A DNA stretch of 39,672 nucleotides from Spirochaetales bacterium (GCA_016936615.1 JAFGXN010000001.1:1-39672); one strand, 5' to 3'. Shown: positions 1-23,185, numbered from the stretch's first letter. Translations and numbers: made by a program. Notes: generated by a model from the letters alone, not told the origin.

Positions 1-666
1 ATAACTTCCACCAGCATCTAGTGTAACTGGAAAGGTTTCAATATCAGATGAAAAAACAGAAGAAGAAAACTCTAATCGAGTAAGCTTTAATCTTCGAGAG
101 CTAACATTTTCAATAATTACTGGACGAACAACACTCTCACCGATAGCAACATCACCGAATTGGTAAGACTTCTTATTCCCACGAATCTCAAAACCAGTAT
201 TGTTAAACCCACCAAGAAGTCCTGTTACATCTGAAGTTATAGGAAATATCAACTCCTTTAAGCCTTCACCATCCTCGTAAGATGCAGAAACAATAAGATT
301 ACATATTACAGTCCCCTCTTCCTCAGGATTCAAGGTAACAACTAGCACAAGAATCTGACCAGGAACCAATGTAAAACCGCTACCTAAATCTGTTCCATCC
401 AAAGATTCCACAGAATACTCAGGATTTGATGTAGTTACAGAAGAAACAACAATATTCTTCTTAGAATGTGTATTCTTTAATTCAAAAGAGACACTCTGCT
501 CTCCATCCTTTTTCGCGCTTGTAAAATCAAATCCATCATCGAAACTTACAGCATTACCATCAAAAGACAAGACTAAACTAGAGTCGAGAGGAATCTCTTC
601 CTCCTGACAACCAAAAAACATAAAACTTACCAAAACTAAAAAAATCAAAAAAAGTTTTTTTCCCAT
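1..666 (-). CDS. Partial lipoprotein with ASH/HYDIN-like domains (C-terminus outside window)
   Basis: The reading frame is open from an ATG at 666 down to the window edge (222 codons, no stop), so the C-terminus is missing. The start has a Shine-Dalgarno GGAG 8 nt upstream. The protein opens with a lysine-containing hydrophobic segment ending in FMFFGC, a lipoprotein signal peptide with the lipid-accepting Cys near residue 20. Two beta-rich stretches follow (about residues 35-140 and 165-222). Each has the pattern of an ASPM-SPD2-Hydin/choice-of-anchor type Ig fold: conserved polar strands such as VSFELKNTHSKKNIVV and VRPVIIENVSSRRLKL, then a P-G-Q-x-L-V-L-V-V-T-L-x-P motif. It starts 26 nt after the upstream lipoprotein stop, so it is probably the last visible gene of the six-lipoprotein operon. 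The likely location is the outer membrane surface or periplasm. Binding partner unknown. Confidence 0.85.
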   Translation of the reverse strand, partial: MGKKLFLIFLVLVSFMFFGCQEEEIPLDSSLVLSFDGNAVSFDDGFDFTSAKKDGEQSVSFELKNTHSKKNIVVSSVTTSNPEYSVESLDGTDLGSGFTLVPGQILVLVVTLNPEEEGTVICNLIVSASYEDGEGLKELIFPITSDVTGLLGGFNNTGFEIRGNKKSYQFGDVAIGESVVRPVIIENVSSRRLKLTRLEFSSSVFSSDIETFPVTLDAGGSY

Positions 667-692
667 CACAAGATCTCCTTATTAAAACAAAA

Positions 693-2813
693 TCAATAGC
701 TCACTGGGATAATCCTCACGTTATCAACAAACGTCTCAACCCCATCATCATCGCCCCATCCATATACATCAGTCTTCTGGAATTCTATTAAGACATATCC
801 ATCCCTATCTGGTGTAAATCTAACCTTCTTCTGATGCCAAACTTCAGGCAAATCAGAAATATCTCCTTTTAACCTAACGGAAACAGCATTTCCATTATTC
901 TGCTTAAACAACATACCTCCAGGAGTGTTATCATCATCGACTTTTATAGAAAAAATAATGTCCTGAGGACTATTCTCCCCCCAGATTCGATACATCATCC
1001 AAGAACTTGCTTCATACTCTACATCCTTATAGACAAAGACCCTTCTCTGAACTAACTTCCCAACTGTCCGATTGTACCAATTTGCAAAATTGATTGGAAT
1101 TACACCAACTACTGGATCATAAACTGCGGCTGAGGTGGAGGTCTCACCAGCCATCCATGCAGAACTAACCCCATGCTTAGCAACAGACTTCAACCCACAA
1201 AAAGCTTGCATATATTCTCCAGCCAAAACAGACTGAAAACCGTATCCTGAATAATTATAAATACCATCATCTCCCCAAGAAGAAGCCCAAGAATACCATT
1301 CTCCCTCCTGTAGCATCACATCTGTATTAACCCATTTCCATCCAATCTCTAATCCTGAATCAGTATCAAGATAACCAACCTCAGTTGGGTTATCCTCAAA
1401 ACTCCAATTATTTACTACTGGATTTGGAGGTGGAAGGATATTAACATTCCTAGAGAAATATGGCGTAGAATTTCCCGAAGGATCTATTCCAACAAATGTT
1501 GTAGAATACGAGCCGACAACTCTAGTATCTATAGAATCCCGAGAAACTCCCGTAACAGAAACTCTAAAGTTAGGATCATTATCAGTACAGACAGGATCAG
1601 GAAAAATAGAAAGTGGATCAGAACCATAGGGTAGATTTTGAGTAACAACCTGATTTGCTGTAACTTCAGTTCCTAAATATGTAAGAGAAGGGAAAATTGT
1701 ATCAACTACAAAAACTCTTCGAACCGAAGATCCCACATTTCCAGCCGTATCTATTGAAGTGTAAACAACTTCATATGCCCCAACAGAATTAACCATATCA
1801 AAAACAGTTATATCAGCAGAGATAATTTCATCACCAGCAACTTTATTTATGACAATCTCTGGTGGTGTAGGCAATAAAACTTCTTTATCAAATGCCTTTG
1901 CTCCATGCTCAATATATGAATCAATTCCAATCTCTATATTAACTTCAGAACTACCATTCAAAATAACAGCAGGAGGAGTAGCATCATCTACCAAAGAAAC
2001 ATATCTATAAACCTCATCAGCTGCTACACCATCAGGATTCTGCAAGGTGTAACTTAAAACATAACTATCACCTTTTGCCCCTTCAATCTCACTATAATCT
2101 ACAAGAACACTATCAGAGATATCTCCATATTTCTTATCATAGGCAATATATCCAGGTTCAACTCGTGAAAAATCAGTAATACCTCGCTCAGCTCTAAAAG
2201 GTTTACTCTCAGAAAGCCCTGATCCATTTAAAATAATTACTGGCTTAAGAGAATCCAGAACAACAAAGACAGAAAGCTGCGCAGTGACATCATTTAAGTT
2301 CGAATCAATAAAGCTATAAGAGACCTTGTACTGCCCTATAACACTTGTGTCCACTACCTCATAGAAATCAGAATCCACAGAATCTATTATTGAACCATCA
2401 ATATCGTATGCAATACAGCCGGGATCATAAGCTAACTCGCCTAAAGTAAAAAAACAAGATTCACCCTGATTTAAAACTATCCACCCCTTAGTAGCTCTTA
2501 CAACAACTGTCCTCTCTACCACCTCAGAAAAATTGCCAGACAAATCATAAACCTTATAATAAATCTTATACGTTCCTGGAACATTAACATTTAATTCAGA
2601 ATCATCAACAATAACCCTTGATGAAATTTTCCCATCTACATTATCTGCAGCAATAAATCCTGGCTCCACATATGTATCACCTTGATTCAAAGTTACAGTC
2701 GGTGTTGTCCCAGATTTCAAAAGAACAATGTATGGATTCTCTTTATCTCCATCATCTGAACACCCAAAAATAAGCAAAATAAGTAAAAATATTAAAAAAT
2801 TTATTTTTTTCAT
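693..2813 (-). CDS. Multi-domain Ig-like (DUF5011-type) lipoprotein with C-terminal jelly-roll-like region
   Basis: 706 residues. The N-terminus has a lysine-rich start and hydrophobic core ending in LIFGC, giving a lipidated Cys at about residue 18. About five repeats of roughly 80-95 residues follow (about 30-106, 108-185, 190-273, 276-372, 374-460). Each carries the pattern VxLNxGxxYxEPGxxAxDxxDG...I ending in a VVxxAxDxxGN-type strand, typical of DUF5011/HYR-like Ig domains of surface proteins. Residues about 470-706 form a separate domain beginning NWSFE and ending TFVDNVRIIPV, a pattern common in jelly-roll carbohydrate-binding regions; this is my inference. The start overlaps the upstream stop by 4 nt (ATGA) and has a strong AGGAGGG. 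It is the fifth gene of the lipoprotein operon. The likely role is surface binding or adhesion, perhaps of a glycan. Confidence 0.85.
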   Translation of the reverse strand: MKKINFLIFLLILLIFGCSDDGDKENPYIVLLKSGTTPTVTLNQGDTYVEPGFIAADNVDGKISSRVIVDDSELNVNVPGTYKIYYKVYDLSGNFSEVVERTVVVRATKGWIVLNQGESCFFTLGELAYDPGCIAYDIDGSIIDSVDSDFYEVVDTSVIGQYKVSYSFIDSNLNDVTAQLSVFVVLDSLKPVIILNGSGLSESKPFRAERGITDFSRVEPGYIAYDKKYGDISDSVLVDYSEIEGAKGDSYVLSYTLQNPDGVAADEVYRYVSLVDDATPPAVILNGSSEVNIEIGIDSYIEHGAKAFDKEVLLPTPPEIVINKVAGDEIISADITVFDMVNSVGAYEVVYTSIDTAGNVGSSVRRVFVVDTIFPSLTYLGTEVTANQVVTQNLPYGSDPLSIFPDPVCTDNDPNFRVSVTGVSRDSIDTRVVGSYSTTFVGIDPSGNSTPYFSRNVNILPPPNPVVNNWSFEDNPTEVGYLDTDSGLEIGWKWVNTDVMLQEGEWYSWASSWGDDGIYNYSGYGFQSVLAGEYMQAFCGLKSVAKHGVSSAWMAGETSTSAAVYDPVVGVIPINFANWYNRTVGKLVQRRVFVYKDVEYEASSWMMYRIWGENSPQDIIFSIKVDDDNTPGGMLFKQNNGNAVSVRLKGDISDLPEVWHQKKVRFTPDRDGYVLIEFQKTDVYGWGDDDGVETFVDNVRIIPVSY

Positions 2814-3184
2814 TTACCCTCCTCAACCCTAAAATAGGTACTAGCCTTGTTATCCTTCAAATATAGACAAGTATCTGTAAGAACATACCTGATAGTGAAT
2901 TCATCACCGCTCTCAAGATTTAAAACCAAAAGTGGATAAGGTACTCCGCTCTGAAAATAAATCTCAGTCTCATAAACACCCGTCCTTTCGGAAATTACAA
3001 ATTCTTCATTATTAACCGTAGTCAATTTCTGCCACATGAATTCGCCATCCTCTCCTAACTCAAAGACCTCGTAAGCATCGCTAGACTGTTTCATCCACTT
3101 CCCAACAATATTTGATTCCTGCTTCATTAAGCAGCCAGAAAGAAAAATTACAAAAGCAGTAAATAAAATAATTCGTTTATTCAT
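2810..3184 (-). CDS. Small lipocalin-like lipoprotein
   Basis: 124 residues from the chosen start. The signal peptide ends in IFLSGC, a clean lipobox. The mature part begins with an IVGKW motif and continues as alternating short beta strands, the pattern of lipocalin-like domains found in bacterial lipoproteins. The frame is open to an ATG at 3196, but I prefer the ATG at 3184. It gives a normal signal peptide and recreates the 8-nt overlap (ATGAATAA) with the upstream stop that is also seen at 5977-5984. No strong Shine-Dalgarno is visible, so translational coupling is likely. It overlaps the next gene by ATGA. It is a clear architectural counterpart of the first gene of this operon (7557-7949), which has the same IVGKW start. 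The ligand is unknown. Confidence 0.8.
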   Translation of the reverse strand: MNKRIILFTAFVIFLSGCLMKQESNIVGKWMKQSSDAYEVFELGEDGEFMWQKLTTVNNEEFVISERTGVYETEIYFQSGVPYPLLVLNLESGDEFTIRYVLTDTCLYLKDNKASTYFRVEEGK

Positions 3185-5984
3185 ATTGATACCCATATCT
3201 CATAACCGGATGTTCCTCTGTTCCAAAATCATGATTCACAGGAACAGATCGATATTTAAAGTTAATCCTAGTAAAATTACAATTCCACGAATAATCCCCA
3301 GAAGTTGGGAAAGGATCTGTTCCTGAATCAAATGCAACGCGTCCAAGAGGACCGCCATTCTTGTCTTCAGAATTTTTAGGTAAAATTAGACCTGGTGCGA
3401 AAGAAGTCTTAGAACCCCTAAAATAGACATCCACGGTGCCGTCTTCTCTTCTATCCAATCCCCAATGATAATTATAATCTCTCACAAATACTGAGTAATA
3501 CATTGAACCACTGTAATAAGGTGTTTGAATTGTTACCCATTGAGAAACATTCCTTGTAACATTACTTTCAAGCTTTACAGCCATTGAAATTGGTGAATTA
3601 TTACCGTTATTATCTTTTGTTTCGATAACCATCCCTGGCCAATCACAATAGTTCTCAATACCACCACTACCTGCACCACCGAGACCATCCTTCCAAACAC
3701 TTAAATAAGCACGTCCATTTGATCCACTATATTCATTATATTCACCTTGAATTGACTGACTATTTCCACCAGCTAGCCAAGCCAAAGTCATTGCATAGTG
3801 GTATCGAGGAATCAAAATTAGAGATAACCTATTCATAGCCACATCCTTGAACCACATAGCCATATGAGCAAATTGAAACTCTGTCAATGCTGGCCATCCA
3901 ACAGTTTCACCAACTAAAGGAGACCAAGTAGCATCAGACTTCCTCTCAACAACAACCTTATACTCTACATTCATTGCTCGTTGCATATTAAAAGGACGTT
4001 TTCTCTTAATATCTTTCCAAGCCTCAGTATCCCAATCTGCATATAGCCATCGTTGCTTCTTATAACCATCAGGCTCAGAGGAATCAGGTATAAGCTGACC
4101 ATTTTCAAAAGCATACATAGGATCAACATAGGTGAACTCCCCAGTTGCAGCGTTTAAATAAACATCATCATTCAAGTTTATTTCCAGAATAGATTCAACG
4201 TGAGGAACTCCAACCTTGGTAAAAGATACTCCACCAATAGTCTTTCTTGGTTCAAACAAAGGATGAACGCCATCCTCATAACCATATCTACATATTCTAA
4301 CTAATTTAAAGTTTAAATTATCAAGATTACTTGTATCACTTAACTTACCTGAAAGAACAATATACCCTGCATGATTTGGATCATTCTGAGAAGCTACTGG
4401 AGCGATGTCAAATACAGGCATTGGAACAGTATAATCTCCATCAAAGCCAGAATCACCACTCTGATAAACAATTGGTTCTTTTCCAAAAATCGATAAATAC
4501 TCCGCAATTAACGAATTAAGAGTAATATCGCCAAAAATCTCATTCGCCCCATTTATAACAACTCCATCATCATCTACAAAAAGCTCATAAGCAGGTTTCA
4601 CCTTATAGAACAATTCATCAGACTCTAAAATAAAATCAGGAATATCAGCTTTAATATTCGACTCTGAATCTAAGAAAGAAAGACCAGTAACATATGAAAT
4701 TTTCTCAAAGCTAGAATCCATGTTTGATGCAGGCTCTGTCGAAGATCGATAAACATAATAACCCTTTGCCCCTTTACACTCTTCCCATTCTATAAAAAAT
4801 CCATCCTTTGTTACTCTTACATCAACAGGAGCCCCTTCATAAGGGGAAATTCCTGAACCTCTAAAAAAGTCTAAATCATCCAAGTTAAGATCTGAACTTC
4901 TTCCAGGACCTATGGAATTGATTCCTGCAACTCGGTAGTAATAATCTTCTCCAGTAGAAACATCAGAAGAAGAATCATAATAATACTGACATGTTATAGT
5001 CTCCCCATCTACTATGATATCCTGAGAACCTAAATCATCTAAACTCAAGTAAATCTCATCACCATAGTAATTTCCAGCCTCAATCTGACTTGACGAAACT
5101 TTATAAAGAACAAAAGAGGTGGCGTTAAATTGCTTCCATACTACCTTAATTGCATCAGAGAAGACCCCTTTAGAAACGTAAACAATCTCAGTCTGCTTAG
5201 GAGCACCAACGACCTCAAGAGAGCCCTTCACTGGATTATCTATAAACTTGTAAGTATTATTATCAAAATGAGCTGCTAACAAATACCAGTACTCTTTCTG
5301 AGAGATCAAGTCACCTTTAGCCTCTGTTGAATAGTCGTAAAAACTAGTACCTACGATAGAATCGCTAATTAAATCATATTGTTGAACCAATTTTGGCGCT
5401 GAACCATCTGATAATGATTCTGCTCGATAGATAGTATAATACAACGCACCATCTACAGGCTCCCAGGTCATAGCAACCTTATCCTTAAAAGCACGTTGAG
5501 TAACAACAAACTTCTTTACATCGCCTAGAAGAAAGCCATCTGCAGCTGCTGAAAACTTGGAAATTTTCTCCTGCTCTAAACTTAAAGCTTTTACACGATA
5601 AAAATATGTCTTTCCAGGTACCAGCGACGACCCCTCTGAATAATCAATGAAAGATGGATCATCCAGCAAAGTGTTATTTAGCTTTACATAATCTTCAGAA
5701 ATATTTTCAGATCTGTAGATCTCATATTTTAACTTCTCTCTATCAAAGACAACTGGATTCCAAGAAATTTCAATTTTATCCTTAAAATTCCCTTTTGAGA
5801 CAACAATATTGCTAGGGATTGGAATAGAAAGATCTTCAACAAACCTTAAGTCTGGATCAGTCTCACCTGAAGAACTCAACTCGACCTCAGCCTCATTAAA
5901 CTCACTGACTTTTAAGATATTATCTTTACATCCTATAAAAAGACTAAAAACTAAAAATAAAAAAATAAAAAACCTATTATTCAT
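3177..5984 (-). CDS. Large fibronectin-III-repeat lipoprotein with novel C-terminal domain
   Basis: 935 residues. The signal peptide ends in LFIGC (lipidated Cys at about 19). Four Fn3-like repeats follow at about 52-152, 154-255, 258-365 and 378-470. Each opens with a variant of VxKGxFxDxIxxxW and has a central YxxYR strand and a late YFYRV strand. The region from about 500 to 935 does not look like Fn3. It is rich in Trp, Tyr, Gly and Asn (for example YDWPG-like and YHWGLDRREDG segments) and could be a beta-sandwich ligand-binding domain, but I do not recognise a family. The gene has a strong GGAGG before its start and overlaps the upstream stop by ATGAATAA. It is probably surface-exposed and part of a glycan-capture complex, judged from the operon and the glycosidase neighbours. 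Confidence 0.85.
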   Translation of the reverse strand: MNNRFFIFLFLVFSLFIGCKDNILKVSEFNEAEVELSSSGETDPDLRFVEDLSIPIPSNIVVSKGNFKDKIEISWNPVVFDREKLKYEIYRSENISEDYVKLNNTLLDDPSFIDYSEGSSLVPGKTYFYRVKALSLEQEKISKFSAAADGFLLGDVKKFVVTQRAFKDKVAMTWEPVDGALYYTIYRAESLSDGSAPKLVQQYDLISDSIVGTSFYDYSTEAKGDLISQKEYWYLLAAHFDNNTYKFIDNPVKGSLEVVGAPKQTEIVYVSKGVFSDAIKVVWKQFNATSFVLYKVSSSQIEAGNYYGDEIYLSLDDLGSQDIIVDGETITCQYYYDSSSDVSTGEDYYYRVAGINSIGPGRSSDLNLDDLDFFRGSGISPYEGAPVDVRVTKDGFFIEWEECKGAKGYYVYRSSTEPASNMDSSFEKISYVTGLSFLDSESNIKADIPDFILESDELFYKVKPAYELFVDDDGVVINGANEIFGDITLNSLIAEYLSIFGKEPIVYQSGDSGFDGDYTVPMPVFDIAPVASQNDPNHAGYIVLSGKLSDTSNLDNLNFKLVRICRYGYEDGVHPLFEPRKTIGGVSFTKVGVPHVESILEINLNDDVYLNAATGEFTYVDPMYAFENGQLIPDSSEPDGYKKQRWLYADWDTEAWKDIKRKRPFNMQRAMNVEYKVVVERKSDATWSPLVGETVGWPALTEFQFAHMAMWFKDVAMNRLSLILIPRYHYAMTLAWLAGGNSQSIQGEYNEYSGSNGRAYLSVWKDGLGGAGSGGIENYCDWPGMVIETKDNNGNNSPISMAVKLESNVTRNVSQWVTIQTPYYSGSMYYSVFVRDYNYHWGLDRREDGTVDVYFRGSKTSFAPGLILPKNSEDKNGGPLGRVAFDSGTDPFPTSGDYSWNCNFTRINFKYRSVPVNHDFGTEEHPVMRYGYQYE

Positions 5985-7560
5985 CGTTACCTCCTACAAC
6001 AACAATTACAGAATCTGTAAAATGCGTTCTGATTCCATCAGTACCCACGAATCTAATCGCATATTCATAGGCTCCAGAATCCAAACCTGTATCCTCATAT
6101 TGATACTCCAGCTGACTTGAAGAATCTATAGAAACAAGCAAATCATAATTCAAACTACCAGCTATTCTCTTCATAATCTCATATTTTTGAACTTCAACTC
6201 CAGATTCAGTATCAATCATGGGTGGAAGTAAAATTGTAATAGAAGAACCACTAGCAGAGGCTGAAAATGAGAAATCACTAGGCTCAAAATTCATAGCTTC
6301 AGGGTTAGCAGCAAATCCACGAGACATTGAACTAAAAGGAGAAATATATTCATTAAATTCTGAAGAGTTATAGATACCAGCAATTCTAAAATAGTAAAAT
6401 TTTTCCCAAGAAGAATTAAACTCAATCTCAGGTATTTGAATATCAGAAATACCAAGACGGTAAACCCACTGTACATAAGGAATACCATCAACTTCAGCAT
6501 CTTTGTAAAACAACCTTGGGTCAGATACACTCTGTGAAAAAGACTCCAAACCCCTTGTTAAAAATGATCCATCGAATTCATAGAAAGCATTTAAAGGCTT
6601 AGGATTTTCAATATTTATATCAAAAACCTGGTCTAAGGTTAAATAATCACTTGATGTAGGGTCAAAAACAGAGTAAACATCCCATTTATCAGCGGAAACT
6701 TCATCATAAGTTCCATCTGAATATAGAATACCTTTTGAAACCATCCAAGAAATATCAATAACAGAATAATCCTCACTATAGCCATTAGATCCAGCTACCC
6801 CTCTCACAAAAGAGCCCTTAGTCGCCGAACAATTCACAGCACTTGGATAAGAAAACCCTTTAATTGCAACTGGACTTGGTAACCCAGAAAACCCAACCTC
6901 ATTCACTGGAATAATTTGATAATCATAATATCTTGAAGACTCAGCCCCTCTATCAGTCCATGAAAAACTAGAACTACTCGGATCAATTGGAATATACCTA
7001 TCATTTACAATAGAAAACTCAGAACTCCCTGTTTCACGCCTCAAAATAGTATAAGAAAAAGCTTTATGCGAGGGAATCCAAGTTAAAACAATGTTTTTAG
7101 ATACACCTTTTGAAACAAAAAGATCTTCAACCGAGCCAACCTCTTTTGATTCAGTTAACGATAACATATAACTTGGAGAAAACCCGCTCTTCATCCCCTC
7201 AGTAGTAACAGACCTTAATTTGTAATAAACAAGGTCAGATGAAAAATCTAGAATATCCTCTGAAAAAGAATTCTCAGAAGCATATTTTTTAAATTCAAAA
7301 TTTTCTCCATCTCTAGAAGAATAAACCTCATAGTAGCTGGCAAATGGAACACTATCCCAAATAAGATTTGCCTTTGCAATACCAAATTCGTTAGCAACAA
7401 ATGCAGTGCCTTTGATAGGAGGATCTATAACCGACTCAGACAATAACACCTCTAAGACACTCTTATCTCCAGAATCATTAGTCATAGGATCAGTCTTAAA
7501 ATCAGGCAAATCACAAGAAAATATAAAAAGAATCAAAGTTAACAAATACATTCTCTTCAT
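5977..7560 (-). CDS. Fibronectin-III-repeat lipoprotein
   Basis: 527 residues. The signal peptide ends in LFIFSC (Cys at about 16). Fn3-like modules are visible at about 44-133 and 142-232, the latter with the VSKG...IVLTW opening shared with the downstream paralogue. A longer, degenerate module lies at about 236-415 and a final one at about 425-523 with a clear GAYEYAIRFVG strand. A strong Shine-Dalgarno (GGAGG, 7 nt spacing) precedes the ATG, which overlaps the upstream stop by ATGA. No catalytic motif is seen. Fn3 modules in bacterial surface proteins usually act as spacers or mediate binding, so a scaffold or adhesin role in the lipoprotein complex is the best inference. Confidence 0.85.
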   Translation of the reverse strand: MKRMYLLTLILFIFSCDLPDFKTDPMTNDSGDKSVLEVLLSESVIDPPIKGTAFVANEFGIAKANLIWDSVPFASYYEVYSSRDGENFEFKKYASENSFSEDILDFSSDLVYYKLRSVTTEGMKSGFSPSYMLSLTESKEVGSVEDLFVSKGVSKNIVLTWIPSHKAFSYTILRRETGSSEFSIVNDRYIPIDPSSSSFSWTDRGAESSRYYDYQIIPVNEVGFSGLPSPVAIKGFSYPSAVNCSATKGSFVRGVAGSNGYSEDYSVIDISWMVSKGILYSDGTYDEVSADKWDVYSVFDPTSSDYLTLDQVFDINIENPKPLNAFYEFDGSFLTRGLESFSQSVSDPRLFYKDAEVDGIPYVQWVYRLGISDIQIPEIEFNSSWEKFYYFRIAGIYNSSEFNEYISPFSSMSRGFAANPEAMNFEPSDFSFSASASGSSITILLPPMIDTESGVEVQKYEIMKRIAGSLNYDLLVSIDSSSQLEYQYEDTGLDSGAYEYAIRFVGTDGIRTHFTDSVIVVVGGNDE

Positions 7561-7949
7561 TCTTTCACCTCCATAAATCTTTTACCTTTATAACCAGCAG
7601 GAGTCGCTGTATCAACTAACAAAAGTGCGCGAGCCCCATCTGCTAACATAAAATTTCTAAAAACCAACTCTCTTGTTTCATCATCTGGCTTGAAAATAAT
7701 AACATAATCATCCTCAGGAATCTCATAAGAGCCTCTGAATGATAAATCATCATCTTCAACTCCATTTACAAAATACGTCCATTCGAAACTAAGATCTTCA
7801 TTTATAAATACTCTTTGATTCAACTTTTTTCCTGAAACATATTCATTGCTTTGCCACTTTCCAACAATATCTTTTGAATAAATATAAGAATCGCAAGATA
7901 CTAAAAATGAAAAAACCAGAAATACTGCTCCAAAAACATATAATCTCAT
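7557..7949 (-). CDS. Small lipocalin-like lipoprotein, first gene of the lipoprotein operon
   Basis: 130 residues. The hydrophobic leader ends in FLVSC (Cys at about 19). The mature part starts with a DIVGKW motif and has repeated short strands ending FMEV, a lipocalin-like layout matching the protein encoded at 2810-3184. A Shine-Dalgarno GGAGGG lies close to the ATG. This is the promoter-proximal gene of the operon: upstream are a TTGACA -35, a weak -10 and two LacI-type operator half-palindromes 21 bp apart. Expression is therefore probably controlled by the same sugar-responsive repressor as the GH2 operon. The ligand is unknown. The family assignment rests on the motif and length only. 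Confidence 0.8.
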   Translation of the reverse strand: MRLYVFGAVFLVFSFLVSCDSYIYSKDIVGKWQSNEYVSGKKLNQRVFINEDLSFEWTYFVNGVEDDDLSFRGSYEIPEDDYVIIFKPDDETRELVFRNFMLADGARALLLVDTATPAGYKGKRFMEVKE

Positions 7950-7962
7950 AATCCCTCCAAAA

Positions 7963-7974
7963 GGTAACGTTCAC
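7963..7974. promoter_or_regulatory. LacI-family-type operator O2 of lipoprotein operon (degenerate)
   Basis: GGTAAC-GTTCAC with the same AACGTT core. Its centre is 21 bp (two helical turns) from the centre of the other operator, placing both on the same face of the DNA. It lies in the 5' leader just before the Shine-Dalgarno. Confidence 0.5.
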
Positions 7975-7983
7975 ATCTCTAAT

Positions 7984-7995
7984 GTTAACGTTACC
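7984..7995. promoter_or_regulatory. LacI-family-type operator O1 of lipoprotein operon
   Basis: GTTAAC-GTTACC, an almost perfect 12-bp palindrome with the central CG step typical of LacI/GalR-family operators. It lies at about +2 to +13 of the predicted transcript. The same core occurs before the GH2 gene at 13771-13782. Confidence 0.6.
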
Positions 7996-8003
7996 CATAC
8001 TTT

Positions 8004-8032
8004 ATTTTTTGTCTATTTCTTATTTTTGTCAA
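8004..8032 (-). promoter_or_regulatory. Predicted promoter of the six-lipoprotein operon
   Basis: On the minus strand a perfect -35 TTGACA (8027-8032) is followed after 17 bp by AAAAAT (8004-8009), a 4/6 match to the -10 consensus. The inferred transcription start falls at about 7997, directly against the first operator. Confidence 0.55.
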
Positions 8033-8136
8033 CCTAATTTAGCCTATTTTTACACTTTTTACTCTTTTTTTAAAATTGTAATACAAAAACAGAGAAATAA
8101 TGCTATTATATCCAAACTTCTAGTTTGTCTTTTTTC

Positions 8137-10182
8137 TTAGATCAAATCGCTTTTCTGAACTTTTTGAACCTCATAGACCCTAACTTCAAATCCATCAAGC
8201 TCGAAATCCATGTTTTTACCCGAGTTTAACACCTCAAGACTATTGCCAATCGGCTTAGCAAGAAAATCCATCTCAGTTAACGAATAATCCCCAGTCTCAA
8301 AATCAGCCAACTCCAAAATTTCTGACAAACTCACAGAAATTTTATTTTTCTTATCATCTGAGTTTCTTAAACAAATTATTCCCTTATCTCCATTCCAAGA
8401 ACACCATCCATAAACAGAATGCTCAAAGGGATTTCCACCAAGCCAATGAGTATCAGCAAGCACAGATTCATTTGCTCTAGCCCAATTTGCCCATTCCCCC
8501 AAGATTTCCCAATGCTTATTTGTCAGAAGCCTGTGATTGACATATAGCTCCTGCAGATTAGCACCGCTACAAAAGTAGCTCTTTACTTGGTTCTTCCAAT
8601 CTTCAATATTCCCATCCAAATCCTTGGCCAAACCTAAATCTGCACAAACAATGCCATGAAGCATCAAAGAGTTCAGAGGATAATATTTAGCACGCGATTC
8701 AATTGAAGTATAAGTTGCCCCGTCTCTAAAATTAAGCCACTTCTGATTATTATTGCCCTTACCACGCATTGCAACATCACCATCGCCACCACGCCATATT
8801 GAATCACAATATCGCAACCAGAACGGAGAAGGCCAAGTACCTATTGTAATATTAATAAAAACATCAGGATTTGCAGTTTTTAAATCCTTAGCAAGATTCA
8901 AAACCGCTTCTTTATCCTCAAGTTGCTTATTCTCGTCGAAACTTCCCGCCAATCGGTCAAATTTAAAATAGTTAACCTGATAATTATTTACCAGATTTAA
9001 GCAAACTTTTCTAAAATAATCATAATAACTTTGGTCTGACATCAAAAACCCAGCACGATCTTGGGCTAAACCTAATTTTTTTCCAGCTTTCAATCGCTTC
9101 TGCTGTTCTCCAAGATATCCACCAGCAGGAGAAATCCATACGCCAATTCCTGAGCCTGTGGCTCTAGCCAAATTATTTAACGGAGAAAACCCATCCTTAA
9201 ATCTTTCTGGGTGAAATTGCCATAGATTATCATAATCATCCCAGCCATCATCTAATGCGAATGAATCAAATTTGATTCCATACGGGATAATAAATTTTTC
9301 TTGCCAAGCCTTTATAACATCGATACACTCTTTATCACTAAAAGGTCTCTCATACCATGCGATATCATACCAACTATTGTAATGAAGAAACTGTTTATAA
9401 GGCCTAGCCCTTCGTCGCTGAAGATAATGTTGAAAACTTCGTCTCTCCTGTCCTTTGACAAAAGCGCCAATAACACCACTTTCGGAAAGCTTCTGACCAG
9501 CTTTAAGACAACTACCCCGATTAACTACAAGATTTTGCCCCATACGAGAATTATCAATTCTAGAAAAAGGATGCTCTGAAGCTAGAAAGAAAGATTCACT
9601 CTCAAGTGGGGAACCTAGCACACTGCCAGACTCAACAAAGACCGAAGGTATAGCAGTCCAAATTGAAGAACTAAGAACCTTTTTTTTCTTTATTGGGAAA
9701 AAATCGACTTCTTTGACAAGATAATTGGAGCCATCTCTTAGAAGAAACCGAACTTCAACCTCAAAAGCCTTAAACTTGTCTTTAAACCTTATGCTAACAC
9801 CTTTCCCGGAGTAAGAATTCTCAAGAACAGAGGATTTAACAGGAGAAAGCTCTATAACAGAATAATCCTCACATGCAATCAACGAAGATGAAGAGATTCT
9901 GCCTCGCCCCAATATATTGTATTCAAAGAACCTAGAATCAGTATATTTTGAATTTGAATCTACTCGATTAAAAACTTCAAGTCTCCACCCAGTAGAACTT
10001 TTTGATAAATTACAAATAACCAAATTATTCTGAAGGCTAACCTCACTGCCAGTTTGAGTTAAACTAACCGCACCTGGCTCGACCTCTGAAAAATAAAAAT
10101 CCCGTCCAATTACCTTTGCAGACAAATTTAAATCACAAAGAAGTAATAGTAAAACCGCAAAACCAATTCCTTTTTTTTTCAT
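8137..10182 (-). CDS. Secreted clan GH-D glycoside hydrolase (GH27/GH36-like)
   Basis: 681 residues. A signal peptide precedes a likely cleavage after LSA (about residue 22). Residues about 25-240 form a beta-rich N-terminal domain, and 255-560 a TIM barrel. Motifs match retaining alpha-galactosidase-type enzymes: FALDDGWDD (308-316), KFD (407-409, D409 as candidate nucleophile) and WRGGD (463-467, D467 as candidate acid/base, resembling the WR..GD motif of GH27). A C-terminal beta domain follows. The substrate could be alpha-galactosides or alpha-N-acetylgalactosaminides, but the match to characterised GH27/GH36 enzymes is distant. The gene overlaps the upstream GH2 stop by ATGA and has a strong AAGGAGG, so the two are cotranscribed and probably act on the same extracytoplasmic glycan. 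Confidence 0.75.
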   Translation of the reverse strand: MKKKGIGFAVLLLLLCDLNLSAKVIGRDFYFSEVEPGAVSLTQTGSEVSLQNNLVICNLSKSSTGWRLEVFNRVDSNSKYTDSRFFEYNILGRGRISSSSLIACEDYSVIELSPVKSSVLENSYSGKGVSIRFKDKFKAFEVEVRFLLRDGSNYLVKEVDFFPIKKKKVLSSSIWTAIPSVFVESGSVLGSPLESESFFLASEHPFSRIDNSRMGQNLVVNRGSCLKAGQKLSESGVIGAFVKGQERRSFQHYLQRRRARPYKQFLHYNSWYDIAWYERPFSDKECIDVIKAWQEKFIIPYGIKFDSFALDDGWDDYDNLWQFHPERFKDGFSPLNNLARATGSGIGVWISPAGGYLGEQQKRLKAGKKLGLAQDRAGFLMSDQSYYDYFRKVCLNLVNNYQVNYFKFDRLAGSFDENKQLEDKEAVLNLAKDLKTANPDVFINITIGTWPSPFWLRYCDSIWRGGDGDVAMRGKGNNNQKWLNFRDGATYTSIESRAKYYPLNSLMLHGIVCADLGLAKDLDGNIEDWKNQVKSYFCSGANLQELYVNHRLLTNKHWEILGEWANWARANESVLADTHWLGGNPFEHSVYGWCSWNGDKGIICLRNSDDKKNKISVSLSEILELADFETGDYSLTEMDFLAKPIGNSLEVLNSGKNMDFELDGFEVRVYEVQKVQKSDLI

Positions 10183-13100
10183 ATATCCTCCTTATTAATT
10201 GAAATAGCAGAAATAACAGCTTGAGTAACATTTACAAAAGGAAAATTAATTTCAACAACACCATTTTCATCTGCAACAACATCCTCAGCAGTCAGAGAAA
10301 AAGCAGTATCATGCCCCGCAGCAGCAAAGATATCAACATTGGCAAAATAAACTTTACCATTGACACCTATATCAAACAATCTCCATCCCGAACAATCAGG
10401 ACCACCACCAGTCCCATACCAAGGTTCAATAAAATACATAACAACTTTAAATTTTCCACTCCCAACCGTGAACTTGAAGCTAAGCTCATCTCGACCATAT
10501 CTGTAAGACTGAAAAAGTCTGTCATTATTGGTTTTACTAATCGGATCAAAGGTCTCTCGAACACTGGCAAATCTGTTAGACTTCCCGAACTTCTCGCCCC
10601 ACGAAAAAGTTCCATTCTCTCCATCAAAAGGATGATCACCACGCCACAAATTACCAAACGAATCGTTGTAATCTCCACCCCCGCAATTGTACCGAACAAC
10701 AGAATCTCCATGGTTTTTCAAAATCTCAATTTGATCAGCTAATTTTGGATGATTATAGCTTGGCAAATTATTAAGTACAACGATATCAGAGCAGACCTTC
10801 TGTCCATCAACATAACCCACAGCATACAAAAAATTATTAGAAATATTAGCATTATCCCATCTAAAATGAGTACCTTTAGCGCCCTTAAAACGTTTTCCCA
10901 AAGAATTTTCGCCATAACCATTAAAAAGCTCAACAGAATCGCAATTAGAATAAACCCTTATATTATCCTTTTCGCCAACATGATCCCAACGATCTGGCCA
11001 AGTATGCGAAACAATATAGACGAAAGGGCCTTTAGTCGACGGAAGATAATTACCCATGTACATATAGAAGGCATCTACCGGCTCACCCCAGCTTGCAATC
11101 AATCCCTTATAATTTACAATCCCCACAGCGTTATCTCCTACCCCATCATTTGTCATTGTTTCACTGCGTCCAGGATTTGCGTGCGAAATAAAATTCCACT
11201 GAAAATGACCACAGAACTGATCTCTCATCTCCTCGCCAATTCTTACCTTAGTCTCAAGTATGTGAGTAAAATCTTCTTCATATGCATTATAGTAATCAGA
11301 AACAGCATTTGTCGTCTCACCATCCCGATGCAGCCCAAGAGTTCGCCACGCACCATACTCACCTATAAGCTGTTGATCTACAACAAAACTCCCATAATCT
11401 TCAGCAAATCCGCCATAAGTTCCGCACCAATTCTGAGGCACGTTCCAATCAGATCCTACTCCACCATTACATGTAGTTGTTGGCCGTTCAACAGTACAAA
11501 GGGGATCTAACAGCTTAATTTCCTGGGTCAACTTCTGTGCAAACCATTCTGGAATATTAGACTCATTTTCCAAACCATACAGAACCAACGAAGGACTATT
11601 TCTCCTCTCTTTAACCCATTCTCTTGTTAATGTTATAAAATTTTTGCGAAAAATATCCGAATCAAAGTAAAGTTGAGAAGTCATCTGAGACCACCAAATA
11701 ATTCCTTTATTATCCCAATGCTCACTATACCGTAAATTATGAGGGTGATGCGCATCTCTAAAGGCATTGAACCCTGTAGCTAAAATCTGCGAAACTCGTG
11801 AATCAATTTGCGAAGAAGTAAAAGCATGGTCATTGCCCAAAAGATGCTCATATTCGCATGTTCCATTTAAAAAATAAGGCTTCCCATTTATCTTAAAAAC
11901 AGAAGAAGTATTATCGCTACTTTCGATATTTTCAACATCAACGTCTAATTCTGATACAGCAATAAAATCAATCAAAGGACCAAATCCAAAAAGACCACGA
12001 ATTGTCAAACATAAATCATTAGCCCCCTTGTTCAACTCAATTGGTAGACTAAAATATTCCCACGCATCATCACGCAAAGTTTTATCAAGTGTAAAAAAAT
12101 AAGAAGAACCATCATTCACAGAGATCGAAGCCTTCCTCCCAAATTTTGAAGAATTGGAAAATCTAAGAATCAGAGAATACGTACCAGCTTGCTTCGCATC
12201 ATAATTATAATACAACCTTCCATACGCCAGACCTTTCTTCAAACCATAATACCCGGCACCGTTAAACCCGCGTGCATCAGCTAATTGTCGAATTGCCTTT
12301 GTCTTATAACCTTTTTCAATAGGACTAACTTGTTGACTTCGCTCAATTATAGAATACTGACGATTTAAAATTGGAAATAATTCATCGAGAACAAAAGGAG
12401 TTTCAGACATCTGGACAATATCTCCTGATTTGTCATAAATAGTAGATCTCACTTTATAATAGAAAGGATTGGTAAAATTCCATAAATACGGCTTAATCAG
12501 GTCAGGATAAGAGTGAACAAAAACATTCTTACCCCTTTTAAAACTAACAGTTTCTCTTTTATTTTCAAAAAACCGTGTTCCATCGTAAGATAAAATAAAA
12601 GTATCAAGGACCCCATCAAAGTCCTCTAAAGCCTCAAACTCAACCCGAGTCTCGAGCGATGCGATATCATTAGTTATGCTCTTTCCAGCAATTTGCACAT
12701 TCGGAATACCAGAAACAACGTTAATTTTATTATTTGAAATTAACTTAGTAAAAAAATCATTATCACGTGAAGGAAGAATATCAAACAATAAAGAATCCAC
12801 AGTTTTCTGACCAACTTTTATTGATTTGAAATTATAACTTTTTTCAGAAATAGGCCAAGATATAGTTCTAAAACCAGTCATGGTTTCCTTTGAATCAAGA
12901 ATTTTGCCATTTTCATAAATTTCTGTCACACATCTATACATAAAAGGTTGCTCAGGCGACCAAAGTGTAGGCTGTAAAATATCAGGCATAACAATCTTGT
13001 TAGTCATTTCGCCATGACTAACAATCTCTGTAGATATAGAAAATGAGGAAACCTCAACATTTCCACAGTAAATTTTATTCTTAATCATAATACTACGATT

Positions 13101-13757
13101 TTTATCTGAATAATTGGCAACATCAACCCAAACCTGAGGAGTAACCAAGTCAGCACTCACCTTTTGACTAAAGACATATACTCCAAATGGTGAAATCCGA
13201 ATATCTTCTGTTGTCAGAATCCCAACAGGTCTAAAAATCCCAAAAGGCTGAGAACCTTCAGTCCTTCTTGCACAAGCACCACATATAAACGGCAAATCAG
13301 TTATCCCTTCAGGATGATCAATTTTCACACTGACAAAATCCTTCCCGTCATACTTTAGAAAATCAGAAATTTCTACAGAAAAGCATGTACGACCACCAGC
13401 ATGGAACCCCGCCTTCTGCCCATTAACAAAGACAGTAGCATAACTTCCAGCACCTTCAAAGACTAAAAAAATCTTTTTTCCTTTCATCAGCAACTCAGGT
13501 TCTAAATCCCGCCTATACCATGCAGTCCCATGAAGATTCCCATGAGGAAGACCTTTATAACCATGATAAGTCTCGTGATTGTGCGGAATCACAACTTTTT
13601 CCCAAGAATCAAAAGCAAAATCTTCTTCGAGTGAATCTGAAGGATCACCTAAAATTGTATTCCACCCGTCATTTATATAATGATCAACCCTGGGCAATTC
13701 TGCCCATGATAAGAATATATTTACAAGAAAAAGAAAAAAAAAGATATGACGTTTCAT
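10179..13757 (-). CDS. Secreted multi-domain GH2 glycosidase (beta-galactosidase/beta-glycosidase type) with malectin-like domain
   Basis: 1192 residues. The signal peptide ends in LSWA (about residue 19). Domain order: GH2 sugar-binding jelly roll about 30-190 (motif GxLPHGNLHGTAWYRR), Ig-like GH2 domain about 195-300, a second Ig-like domain about 355-460, a CBM6/35-like galactose-binding domain about 495-605, TIM barrel about 615-850, DUF4982-type Ig region about 900-1000, and malectin-like domain about 1010-1190. Catalytic candidates are E732 in GLENES (acid/base) and E800 in IGEYG (nucleophile). GH2 enzymes cleave beta-galactosides, beta-mannosides or beta-glucuronides; the exact substrate cannot be read from the sequence. 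It is the first gene of a two-gene operon with its own promoter and a perfect LacI-type operator. It is longer than typical GH2 enzymes because of the extra binding modules. Confidence 0.88.
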   Translation of the reverse strand: MKRHIFFFLFLVNIFLSWAELPRVDHYINDGWNTILGDPSDSLEEDFAFDSWEKVVIPHNHETYHGYKGLPHGNLHGTAWYRRDLEPELLMKGKKIFLVFEGAGSYATVFVNGQKAGFHAGGRTCFSVEISDFLKYDGKDFVSVKIDHPEGITDLPFICGACARRTEGSQPFGIFRPVGILTTEDIRISPFGVYVFSQKVSADLVTPQVWVDVANYSDKNRSIMIKNKIYCGNVEVSSFSISTEIVSHGEMTNKIVMPDILQPTLWSPEQPFMYRCVTEIYENGKILDSKETMTGFRTISWPISEKSYNFKSIKVGQKTVDSLLFDILPSRDNDFFTKLISNNKINVVSGIPNVQIAGKSITNDIASLETRVEFEALEDFDGVLDTFILSYDGTRFFENKRETVSFKRGKNVFVHSYPDLIKPYLWNFTNPFYYKVRSTIYDKSGDIVQMSETPFVLDELFPILNRQYSIIERSQQVSPIEKGYKTKAIRQLADARGFNGAGYYGLKKGLAYGRLYYNYDAKQAGTYSLILRFSNSSKFGRKASISVNDGSSYFFTLDKTLRDDAWEYFSLPIELNKGANDLCLTIRGLFGFGPLIDFIAVSELDVDVENIESSDNTSSVFKINGKPYFLNGTCEYEHLLGNDHAFTSSQIDSRVSQILATGFNAFRDAHHPHNLRYSEHWDNKGIIWWSQMTSQLYFDSDIFRKNFITLTREWVKERRNSPSLVLYGLENESNIPEWFAQKLTQEIKLLDPLCTVERPTTTCNGGVGSDWNVPQNWCGTYGGFAEDYGSFVVDQQLIGEYGAWRTLGLHRDGETTNAVSDYYNAYEEDFTHILETKVRIGEEMRDQFCGHFQWNFISHANPGRSETMTNDGVGDNAVGIVNYKGLIASWGEPVDAFYMYMGNYLPSTKGPFVYIVSHTWPDRWDHVGEKDNIRVYSNCDSVELFNGYGENSLGKRFKGAKGTHFRWDNANISNNFLYAVGYVDGQKVCSDIVVLNNLPSYNHPKLADQIEILKNHGDSVVRYNCGGGDYNDSFGNLWRGDHPFDGENGTFSWGEKFGKSNRFASVRETFDPISKTNNDRLFQSYRYGRDELSFKFTVGSGKFKVVMYFIEPWYGTGGGPDCSGWRLFDIGVNGKVYFANVDIFAAAGHDTAFSLTAEDVVADENGVVEINFPFVNVTQAVISAISINKEDI

Positions 13758-13770
13758 AAAACCTCTCTAA

Positions 13771-13782
13771 GTTAACGTTAAC
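13771..13782. promoter_or_regulatory. LacI-family-type operator before the GH2 gene
   Basis: GTTAAC-GTTAAC is a perfect 12-bp palindrome with a central CG. It sits between the predicted -10 and the GH2 start codon, just downstream of the predicted start site, the same position as the operator in front of the lipoprotein operon. The repressor gene is not in this window. Confidence 0.65.
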
Positions 13783-13788
13783 ATACAT

Positions 13789-13817
13789 AGAATACACTCA
13801 GATACTATTTTTAGCAA
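13789..13817 (-). promoter_or_regulatory. Predicted promoter of the GH2 operon
   Basis: Minus-strand -35 TTGCTA (13812-13817), 17-bp spacer, -10 TATTCT (13789-13794). The LacI-type operator begins 6 bp downstream of the -10. Confidence 0.55.
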
Positions 13818-16491: not shown

Positions 16492-17847
16492 TTATGGAGT
16501 CCTGAATAGACGGAAACCGTTTGTAACATAAGAGGAATCTTCGTGGTCCCCATAATATAAACCTATTTTAGAATCAGCGCCTTCCAGATCAGTAAAACTA
16601 CCTCCATGCCTGTGAAGATAATCGCCAGTAGCAGAAAAAGACCACTCCCAAACATTGCCCGACATATCAAAGAGACCAAGTCCATTCTTTTCTTTTGTAG
16701 CTACGACCTGAGTGCTTCGGCCATCTCCTGTATCACTGTTATTTCTATACCAGGCTACTGCTCCTGTGGCTGTTGAATCACTACTATTGTCAGTTGCCCC
16801 ACTAGCCGAATCCCCCTTAGTAAACCATGGATTACTATAACCTTCAACTGTATTTGTGCTATTATTACGCCACCTTGCTGCTAATTCCCACTCCGCTGAA
16901 GTAGGTAATCTGAAACCATTATTAGAAGTGGCTACTGCATCATCACATGCGAGAGCATTAGCATCCCTCGAATCTCTTACAACATTTCCCTCATATCTAT
17001 ATACTGGCTCTAAGTTAGAACTTGTCTTTTCATTATACCACTGGGTTACAGCATTACACCACACAATACAATCCCTCCAGGATACTCTAGTTACTGGATG
17101 CATCTCTGTTCCGACTGGTAAATCAGAAAACCAATTAGTATCGCCCCCCTGTCTTCCAGGATTCTGAAAATAATAAATATCAACGCCTCTATCAGAATGT
17201 GTTGCCCAATCATAGACTATCTTCCACATTCTCCAGGTGACTTCAGTATCACAAACCTGATAGGTATAACCGATACTTGCAGTACCAGAATCTGATTCCC
17301 CAATTGGAAAAGTTATTCCTCCACTTGGCACTGAAACTGTATTCATATTGAAAGAAAAAGTTGAATCTCCAAAAGTTTCTGATTGAATCCACATTGCCTT
17401 AACTGCAACAATCGTTTTTACATCTTCAAAAGAGTGATCCCACCCAATAAAAGCAAATCCGCTCTTACTCGCTTCAGGCGCTGTAGCACTACTTCCATAT
17501 GTTGTAGACTGGGACAACTCACCACCGCCAGTTCTTTCTCCACCATCAAGATCAAAGGTTACTGTGTAACTGTTGATAATCCACACTGCCTTAACAGAAA
17601 GAACCTCTTTAATATTGGAAAAATCCTTATCCCACGATAAACTATGCCCAGTCTTTACAGCAACCGGAGCAACCGCAGACTCTCCATATTTCACAACCTG
17701 ACTCAACTCACCTTCAGTCATTTCTCCACCATCGAGGTCAAAGCTTACGAGAAAAGTATCACTCTCCAATATTTCCTTTGGATTACACCCGAGCACAACA
17801 ACAACCAAAACAAAGACAAAAGTTTTCTTTAAAAAAATCTTAATAAT
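16492..17847 (-). CDS. Lipoprotein with two InlB B-repeats and C-terminal SUMF1/FGE-sulfatase-like domain
   Basis: About 451 residues if started at the ATT at 17847 (alternative ATT 17844). No ATG is available, and the first conventional start, TTG 17808, would cut the signal peptide to eight residues. From the ATT the leader reads as a Lys-containing hydrophobic signal ending in VVVLGC, and GGAG lies 5 nt upstream. Two InlB-type repeats follow (VSFDLDGG...VKAVW and VTFDLDGG...VKAMW). The rest is a SUMF1-type domain (TEVTWRMWKIVYDWA, FRLPTSAEWELAARW, DMSGNVWEW, GGSF, GFRLFR). The paired catalytic cysteines of true formylglycine-generating enzymes are absent from the GGSF region, so it is probably a C-type-lectin-fold binding protein. 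It is a paralogue of the protein encoded at 19736-23098. Confidence 0.85.
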   Translation of the reverse strand: MIKIFLKKTFVFVLVVVVLGCNPKEILESDTFLVSFDLDGGEMTEGELSQVVKYGESAVAPVAVKTGHSLSWDKDFSNIKEVLSVKAVWIINSYTVTFDLDGGERTGGGELSQSTTYGSSATAPEASKSGFAFIGWDHSFEDVKTIVAVKAMWIQSETFGDSTFSFNMNTVSVPSGGITFPIGESDSGTASIGYTYQVCDTEVTWRMWKIVYDWATHSDRGVDIYYFQNPGRQGGDTNWFSDLPVGTEMHPVTRVSWRDCIVWCNAVTQWYNEKTSSNLEPVYRYEGNVVRDSRDANALACDDAVATSNNGFRLPTSAEWELAARWRNNSTNTVEGYSNPWFTKGDSASGATDNSSDSTATGAVAWYRNNSDTGDGRSTQVVATKEKNGLGLFDMSGNVWEWSFSATGDYLHRHGGSFTDLEGADSKIGLYYGDHEDSSYVTNGFRLFRTP

Positions 17848-19735: not shown

Positions 19736-22700
19736 TTATAAATTTCTATAAAGACGAAATCCAGAAGAATAACCAATTGCACTTGGGCTAGTCGTATAAA
19801 ACTGCCCTATAGGAAGACAAGAAGTATTATGGTAAATTTCTCCACCAACAATGATTCGTTCTGATTCGTATAAATCAAAAGTGAACTCCGCAACATTCCC
19901 CGACATATCATAAATACCTAAGCAATTTGGAAGCTTTTTTTTAACTTCTGAAGTAATTGGAGATTTATCATAAACACTATTCTCTCTAGTCCAAGCAACC
20001 AATCCAGAAGCATCAATATCAGAATAATTTGCAGAAGCTCCACTAGCAGAATCGCCTTTAGTAAACCAGGGAGAACTATATCCGGAAACAGTATTTATAT
20101 TGTTATTCCTCCATCGAGCTGCCAATTCCCACTCATCATAACTAGGAAGTCTAAATCCATCAAATGCTCCAGCTTCAGCATAATCAGTAAGATACGACTT
20201 TGATTCAGTAGAATCTCTAAGAATCATGCCACTTCTTCTATAAACTGGTTCTAAGGAAGAACCAGCAATATCATTATACCACTCAGTAAAGGCATTACAC
20301 CAAACAATACAATCCCTCCAAGAAATAAGAGTAACAGGATGCATTTCATTCATAAGACTTGATGAGGATCCACGACATCCCATTAACCCATAATTATCGA
20401 ATTTATAACGCTTATCACCCCTCTCTATCGCAGTAGCCCAACCATACACTATTCTCCAAAGTTTATACGGAACCTCTGTTTCTCCTACCTGATATACCGA
20501 AGAAACAGAAGATGTTTTACTATCTCCAGTACCAACAGGAAAAACAATCCCTCCCTCAGGAACAGGAACAGTAATCATCTTCAAAACATACTCAGGAGTA
20601 GAAAATTCCTGAACATCACTCCAAAGTGCTTTAAATATGATATTGCCTGTAATATTCGAAATATTGGAACTCCAACCTAAAAAGTTATGTGAATTTTTAG
20701 AGACAATAGGCGACTCAGCCGAAGAACCATGTTCAACTTCCTGAATCAAACTACCTCCGCCTTCATGCTGCCCACCATTGAGATCAAATGAAACGGAATA
20801 TTTATTGATACTCCAAACTGCAGATATCTCAAGATTCGAAGAAACATTTGTATAAGATTTATCCCACTCTATAAATGTATATCCAATTTTTTGGGTCAAA
20901 GGGACAACAGCATCTGTAAAAGGTAAAACAACCTGAGAAAGCAGTCCACCCCCAGTTCGAACACCTCCTTCTAAATTAAAAAGAACAGAGAATCCCCAGA
21001 TAGCTTTAACAGAGATATCAGCGGAAACATCATCGAACTGAATATCCCACCCCATAAATGTAAAACCTTCTTTATTAACTACAGGAGCCACTGCACTATC
21101 CCCTTTCCGAACAACTTGAACTAATTCTCCCCCTCCTGCTCGAACTCCTCCATTAACATCAAATAAAACAGCATAAAAAGCTAATTGCTGGTGCAAAATA
21201 TGCCACATATCATTATCATAAATATATGAAACCTTATCAGTAGTATTATAATAAGCCCAGAGCCTTTCTGGATTTGTAAGTGCAGTTGCAGAACTTCCCT
21301 TCCAGACTATTGATACTCCATCTGCTCCATTCTGTCCGTCTGAGCCATTTGCTCCGTCATTTCCATCTCGGGCAAGTACCTGCCAAGCTGATCCATCGTA
21401 AATATATGAAACTTTCTCCACAGAGTTATAATATGCCCAATTCAAGGCTGGATTTACCGGTGCAACTGCAAGACTTCCCTTCCACACAATAGAAGATCCA
21501 TCAGATCCGTTCTGACCATCTTGTCCATTTTGTCCGTCAGAACCATTCGCTCCATCACTTCCATCCTGGGATAGAATCATCCACTGTGTTCCAGTATAGA
21601 TATAAGCTGTCTTCTCAGTTGTGTTGTAGTATGCCCAGTTTATTCCAGGATTTGAAAGATGACTTGCTGAACTTCCTTTCCATACAATAGAAATTCCATT
21701 CTGGCCATCTTGACCATCAGCACCATCTGCTCCATCACGGGCTAGAACCTGCCATGCATATCCATCATAAATATATGAAACCTTATCAGTAGTATTATAA
21801 TAAGCCCAGAGTCTTTCTGGAGTTGTAAGTGCAGTTGCAGAACTTCCCTTCCAGACTATTGATACACCATCTGCTCCATTCTGGCCATCCTGACCATTCT
21901 GACCGTCAGAGCCATTTGCTCCGTCACTTCCATCTCGAGCGAGAACCTGCCAAGCTGATCCATCGTAAATATATGAAACTTTCTCCACAGAGTTATAATA
22001 TGCCCAGTTCAAAGATGGATTTGCAGGCGCTACTGCAAGACTTCCCTTCCACACAATAGAAGATCCATCAGATCCGTTCTGACCATCTTGTCCATTCTGT
22101 CCGTCAGAACCATTCGCCCCATCACTTCCATCTTTAGCCAAAATCATCCACTGTGTTCCAGTATAGATATAAGCTGTTTTATCTGTTGTATTGTAATATG
22201 CCCAGTTTATTCCAGGATTTAAAAGATGACTTGCTGAACTTCCTTTCCAAACTATAGAAATTCCATTCTGGCCATCTTGTCCGTCAGCACCATCTTCCCC
22301 ATCACGGGCTAGAACCTGCCAAATTTTTCCATCATAAATATATGAAACCTTGTCCGAGGTATTATAATAAGCCCAGTTTATCTTCGGATTACTTAATGCA
22401 GAAGGATGTGCTCCTTTCCATACCAACCCATTATTAGAATCTCGTAACTGTTCACTAGTAAAGCTTCTTGGTGCTATACTATGAATCTTTGAGGCAAGAG
22501 AAAAATCAGTAGCCAAAACATCAACAAAATTACCTTTTATTACAATAATTGCATAGTTTTGTCCAAGAGGAACATCAAAGATACTGAAATTACCTTGATA
22601 ATCAGTAGTGGCAAGAAAAGATGTTCCAGCAACACTGACAAAAAAACCATAATTTCCACTTTCCTGAGAATCTACCGTGATTTGACCAGAAATTGTCCCC

Positions 22701-23098: not shown

Positions 23099-23185
23099 AA
23101 ACATCCCCCTAATTATTAATCAAAGAAATAATACACAATTATAATAGAATATGCAATATTTCAAAAACCTAAATTCCATCTTTCC

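Follow-up and report, generated by a model that had tools for sequence, protein, structure and literature searches.

A LacI-type operator probably shared by glycosidase genes and a six-lipoprotein operon in a spirochaete genome

The DNA analyzed here (the "window") comprises 39,672 nucleotides and represents the whole of contig C146 in the draft genome of a Spirochaetales bacterium (GCA_016936615.1, JAFGXN010000001.1), which consists of 168 contigs, amounts to 3.26 Mb and is 93.9% complete. Two operons on the minus strand lie adjacent to each other in this window (Table 1). The first encodes two secreted glycosidases, whose genes overlap by 4 bp. For the GH2 protein, the nearest model was beta-glucuronidase/beta-L-arabinofuranosidase, scored below the model cut-off. 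The product of the second gene (8137-10182) gave no Pfam or NCBIfam match, and its best PDB match was a GH31 alpha-galactosidase with an E-value of 0.077. In the preliminary description, this unit was named a GH2/GH-D operon; the GH2 part of this name is firm, while the GH-D part derives from sequence motifs and found no counterpart at the family level. Elsewhere in the window, two proteins (16492-17808 and 19736-23104) join Listeria-Bacteroides repeats to an FGE-sulfatase domain, and the larger also contains a collagen-like stretch.

The second operon (1..7949) consists of six ORFs that overlap or are at most 15 bp apart, with the sixth truncated by the contig end. Inspection of the N-termini revealed a signal peptide and a lipobox cysteine in all six, in agreement with their earlier description as a six-lipoprotein operon. 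The conserved C-terminal domain of lipoprotein C showed no known match and was found only in genomes of the family to which the window organism belongs. Structure models of lipoprotein C (pLDDT 61.8, reliable for the fn3 part alone) and lipoprotein E (poor, 50.4) were of low quality, and their fold matches therefore support the fn3/Ig label alone. A scan of the genome contigs with lipoprotein B as query gave no match.

A second copy of the lipoprotein operon is present in the same genome on contig C145 (11000-21244, at 4801-10152 therein; locus L077), where it reads A-B-C-D up to the contig end. The nearest relatives found to share the lipoprotein genes are the uncultured Spirochaetes MAGs BRZ_BB bin28 (G001) and BRZ_M bin37 (G002), belonging to the same family as the window genome and to a different, sister genus. 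In these, the order is A-B-C-D-E in several copies, some with an extra gene, and the full-length counterpart of lipoprotein F in G001 comprises 1170 aa. BRZ_BB bin28, at 1.9 Mb, contains three copies of lipoprotein C (L113-L115); even small genomes thus have several copies of the module. In many Spirochaetia (L108-L111 and others), two fn3 lipoproteins of ~740 and ~1150 aa are encoded as a pair ahead of a small lipoprotein, after which a 180-190 aa barrel-like protein is frequently encoded; no function was found. These pairs resemble the operon studied here in their tandem fn3 domains and compact organization, but the match is confined to the fn3 region.

Table 1. Features of the two operons (window positions) and operator-like sites elsewhere in the genome (contig:position).
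Feature	Position	Strand	Remarks
Operator 1, perfect GTTAACGTTAAC	13771..13782	.	13 nt upstream of GH2 start codon
Operator 2a, GTTAACGTTACC	7984..7995	.	1 mismatch; 34 nt upstream of lipoprotein A start
Operator 2b, GGTAACGTTCAC	7963..7974	.	2 mismatches; 21 bp from operator 2a (start to start)
Putative GH2-operon promoter, TTGCTA-17-TATTCT	13789..13817	-	By eye; under promoter-scan threshold
Putative lipoprotein-operon promoter, TTGACA-17-AAAAAT	8004..8032	-	Promoter scan
Secreted GH2 glycosidase, 1192 aa	10179..13757	-	Malectin domain; GH2 assignment firm
Secreted probable clan GH-D glycosidase, 681 aa	8137..10182	-	Motifs DDGW...GVWISP and NYFKFD
Lipoprotein A, 130 aa	7557..7949	-	No family match
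Lipoprotein B, 527 aa	5977..7560	-	fn3-like; paralog on contig C145, 33% identity
Lipoprotein C, 935 aa	3177..5984	-	Tandem fn3-like domains and conserved C-terminal domain
Lipoprotein D, 128 aa	2810..3196	-	Small
Lipoprotein E, 706 aa	693..2813	-	Three Bact_surface_Ig-like domains (PF16403)
Lipoprotein F, at least 222 aa	1..666	-	Cut by contig end; HYDIN/ASH-type Ig-like domains
Site, ≤1 mismatch	C55:10939		Upstream of phosphodiesterase-GH27 operon (phosphodiesterase first)
Site, ≤1 mismatch	C55:20048		Upstream of LacZ-type GH2
Site, ≤1 mismatch	C70:7369		Upstream of SASA acetylesterase lipoprotein
Site, ≤1 mismatch	C128:8081		Between divergent GH20-GH89-GH2 and GH35 genes
Site, core intact, 2 mismatches outside core	C128:10446		Upstream of purple acid phosphatase
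Site, core intact, 2 mismatches outside core	C44:2165		Upstream of Flg_new repeat lipoprotein

Both operons are preceded by the same palindrome, as first described. The copy before the GH2 gene is exact, and the two copies before lipoprotein A are imperfect. LacI-family operators are mostly even palindromes with a central CG (Ravcheev et al. 2014, PMC4052901), and GTTAACGTTAAC has exactly this form. Our literature search retrieved no paper on a GTTAACGTTAAC operator. The location just past the predicted -10 was also confirmed for both operons, with the reservation that promoter calls from a single sequence are weak: operator 1 lies 6 nt after TATTCT (13794-13789), which is separated by a 17-nt spacer from TTGCTA (13817-13812), and operator 2a lies 8 nt past the AAAAAT of TTGACA-17-AAAAAT (8032-8004). 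For AraQ, a LacI regulator of bifidobacteria, a site 3' of the -10 was interpreted as repression (PMC5928203); the parallel concerns the position of the site. Overall, the window contains five matches with at most two mismatches, compared to 0.95 expected, and five or more were reached in 0/100 shuffles. The remaining two (7154 and 26643) fall inside genes, so the earlier remark that the motif occurs nowhere else between genes in the window holds.

Across the whole 3.26 Mb genome, the motif proved to be rare rather than frequent, with two exact occurrences of GTTAACGTTAAC, 12 sites with at most one mismatch and 19 occurrences of the core TAACGTTA. In count, these sites do not exceed a reversed-motif control (36), whereas their placement departs from random. 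Based on a simple SD/ORF rule for starts and coding status, 50% (6/12) of the sites with at most one mismatch are located outside coding sequence and 13-52 nt upstream of an SD-preceded start, including two within 5' extensions of open frames that were deemed non-coding by eye. Against a background of 2.6% of random positions, this corresponds to a binomial probability of 2.5e-7 (1.6e-4 at an assumed background of 8%), and a control palindrome of equal composition showed this placement in 0/7 cases. Besides the sites of the two window operons, the six comprise four sites on other contigs (Table 1). Among the matches listed (about 100), two weaker sites with an intact core were also found upstream of genes, and further weak regulon members are possible. 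A perfect 12-mer on C145 was considered as operator of the paralogous lipoprotein operon, which lies downstream of it. This copy falls within the signal-peptide codons of a gene for an 803-aa secreted protein of no recognized family, and it was left uncounted because it is intragenic and the lipoprotein promoter there is without a site.

The question arises whether the pair of sites before the lipoprotein operon is meaningful. The GH2/GH-D operon could belong to the regulon while the pair is coincidental or too weak to act, the lipoproteins being housekeeping envelope proteins. In line with this reading, the two sites are imperfect, and the operator is absent both from the C145 copy and from four copies checked in G001 and G002, a set that excludes the third G001 copy (L114). 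However, the chance of a site with at most one mismatch in the 187-bp gap is about 7e-4 at genome-wide densities, and that of a second site with at most two mismatches within 30 bp about 8e-4. Moreover, the 21-bp spacing fits the geometry of LacI site pairs, whose distances peak at 13, 22 and 32 bp (PMC4052901), and the variant GGTAACGTTAAC also precedes the phosphodiesterase-GH27 operon on C55. We therefore regard coincidence as unlikely. Operators before both operons and the non-random placement of the six sites suggest shared control by a LacI-type repressor, so the two operons of the window look co-regulated, which we consider probable from the sequence.

Three LacI genes were found in the genome, none of them in the window. 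One of these, P0001 (C55:15178-16275), lies between two of the operator sites and is a strong candidate for the LacI-family regulator with matching sites that the preliminary description proposed to look for; together with the form of the palindrome, this supports operators of the LacI type. P0001 combines a LacI HTH with a Peripla_BP_4 domain, and its neighborhood on C55 contains GH29, GH110, GH123-type, GH27 and GH2 genes. Its recognition helix, VSIGTIDR, places it in a subgroup with VSIGT(V/I)DR. Among 20 full-length relatives of the same class with SIGTVDR-type helices, several of them near-duplicates, ten carry the operator (at most two mismatches) within 140 bp upstream, five of these with at most one mismatch, in contrast to none of nine LacI-type proteins whose helices differ (Fisher p 0.009). 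In two further same-helix relatives the operator is located downstream (L042, L060). The operator of these relatives is typically TTGCGTTAACGTTAACGCAA and adjoins their own genes. Close to the P0001 locus (L078, C55:20000-39999, about 960-8270), we also observed a tandem array of alternating families of short lipoprotein and secreted genes, whose recurring starts are MKKVFFTYNQNYFRC and GCPRDPDMDGxYDP; the array appears to have arisen by local amplification of genes.

By homology and exclusion, P0001 is the probable owner of GTTAACGTTAAC. Local regulators usually have an autoregulatory site, but the upstream region of P0001 contains only a degenerate one (GTTAACAATAAC, two mismatches, centre not CG), as might be expected if the palindrome belonged to another regulator, e.g. 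a global carbon regulator or either of the other two LacI proteins. Both of these LacI proteins, however, fall outside the motif-carrying helix group of P0001 (100/100 branch). The one on C93 (L018, 5441-8667) is divergent from a GH2 gene that is directly preceded by a different perfect palindrome, ACAAAACGTTTTGT, and reads as a second, separate glycosidase regulator; the one on C43 adjoins thiamin-type genes. Assignment of the palindrome to another regulator thus appears highly improbable.

Several of the same-helix relatives adjoin genes for ribulokinase, ribulose-phosphate epimerase and arabinose isomerase, which suggests that the ancestral regulator of the subgroup probably served arabinose. 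P0001 shares the recognition helix and operator core with these spirochaetal arabinose-linked regulators. In contrast, it is only 28-37% identical to the operator-bearing relatives, sits on a long branch and is located among host-glycan glycosidases, suggesting that its ligand has probably changed.

The genes at the sites (GH2, GH27, GH20, GH35 and esterase) support the sugar-degradation setting that had been proposed. The enzymes of the regulon and its surroundings (GH2, GH20, GH27, GH29, GH35, GH89, GH110, GH123-type and a sialate-type acetylesterase) presumably act on mucin-type or other animal glycans. Here, the operator was seen before GH2, GH20, GH35, esterase and phosphodiesterase-GH27 genes, while GH29, GH110 and GH123-type genes adjoin P0001 or a regulon site.

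Overall, we consider it likely that P0001 acts as a repressor and controls a dispersed, sugar-induced regulon including the glycosidases and the six-lipoprotein operon. The binding, repression, ligand and co-expression that we infer would combine as follows. Without its sugar ligand, P0001 would occupy GTTAACGTTAAC just past the -10 and block transcription; at the lipoprotein promoter, two dimers would probably bind the 21-bp pair cooperatively. Binding of the sugar, probably a monosaccharide freed from an animal-type glycan, would release P0001 and turn on the secreted GH2 and GH-D enzymes and the six-lipoprotein operon in the window as well as GH2, GH27, GH20-GH89-GH2, GH35, acetylesterase and phosphatase genes elsewhere. 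The lipoproteins, as lipid-anchored fn3/Ig rods, would most likely serve to attach the cell or its enzymes to the glycan. Such an arrangement resembles known local and multi-operon sugar regulons of the LacI family (PMC4052901) in its promoter-near, even palindrome with central CG, its 21-bp pair and its secreted or catabolic sugar target genes. It differs in having six fn3/Ig lipoproteins among the targets and in extending over several loci of an uncultured spirochaete.

The absence of a SusC/SusD pair, initially noted for the window, extends to the 93.9% complete genome, in which SusD had 0 matches and a single TonB plug domain protein was detected. Similar to the Sus-like PULs of Bacteroidota, surface lipoproteins and glycosidases are here under shared, predicted control; unlike in those PULs, SusD is missing, there is only this one TonB plug, the genes are scattered and control is of the LacI type. 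The two operons had been proposed to form one locus of an undescribed kind of PUL. A non-Sus PUL of this kind, with the six lipoproteins as dedicated glycan-capture or handling parts always partnered with hydrolases, would be consistent with the operator common to both operons and with the weak similarity (E 1.4e-5) of the lipoprotein E Ig domain to BT_2262, a lipoprotein from a SusCD complex of known structure. Furthermore, an operon copy lies divergent from a GH20 hexosaminidase gene in both G001 (L105:6901-8829) and G002 (L107:12791-14716), which independently hints at a glycan link. Against this, other operon copies adjoin ruvC/mutY-type or unrelated genes, the remaining examined copies are without the operator, the Ig domain is widespread and no carbohydrate-binding module was recognized in lipoproteins A-E. 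In our view, this makes a dedicated PUL improbable, and the proposal of a single locus of a new PUL kind is not supported, with a regulon spread over several contigs and operon copies devoid of the operator.

The data are better explained by a dispersed LacI regulon for host glycans that has acquired a single copy of a conserved fn3/Ig lipoprotein module. Since the other operon copies examined lack the operator, conservation of the module does not extend to glycan control, and operator control of the window copy looks lineage-specific, given its absence from the C145 and sister-genus copies. Judging from the varied neighbors and the operator-less copies examined, the lipoprotein module probably predates the operator and exists independently of it. 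It is a tentative and rather doubtful idea that the six-lipoprotein operon represents a family-conserved, SusCD-independent surface system for host-glycan capture in spirochaetes, wired here to the genome-wide regulon via an arabinose-derived LacI protein.

The capture and degradation of host and mucosal glycans by spirochaetes, without Sus systems, is poorly described. The operator and its candidate repressor yield a list of genes and tie surface lipoproteins without assigned function to glycan use. Should the lipoproteins prove to bind glycans, they would offer a second solution at the cell surface next to SusCD; failing that, the operator would still mark a regulon for host glycans in a lineage that is uncultured.
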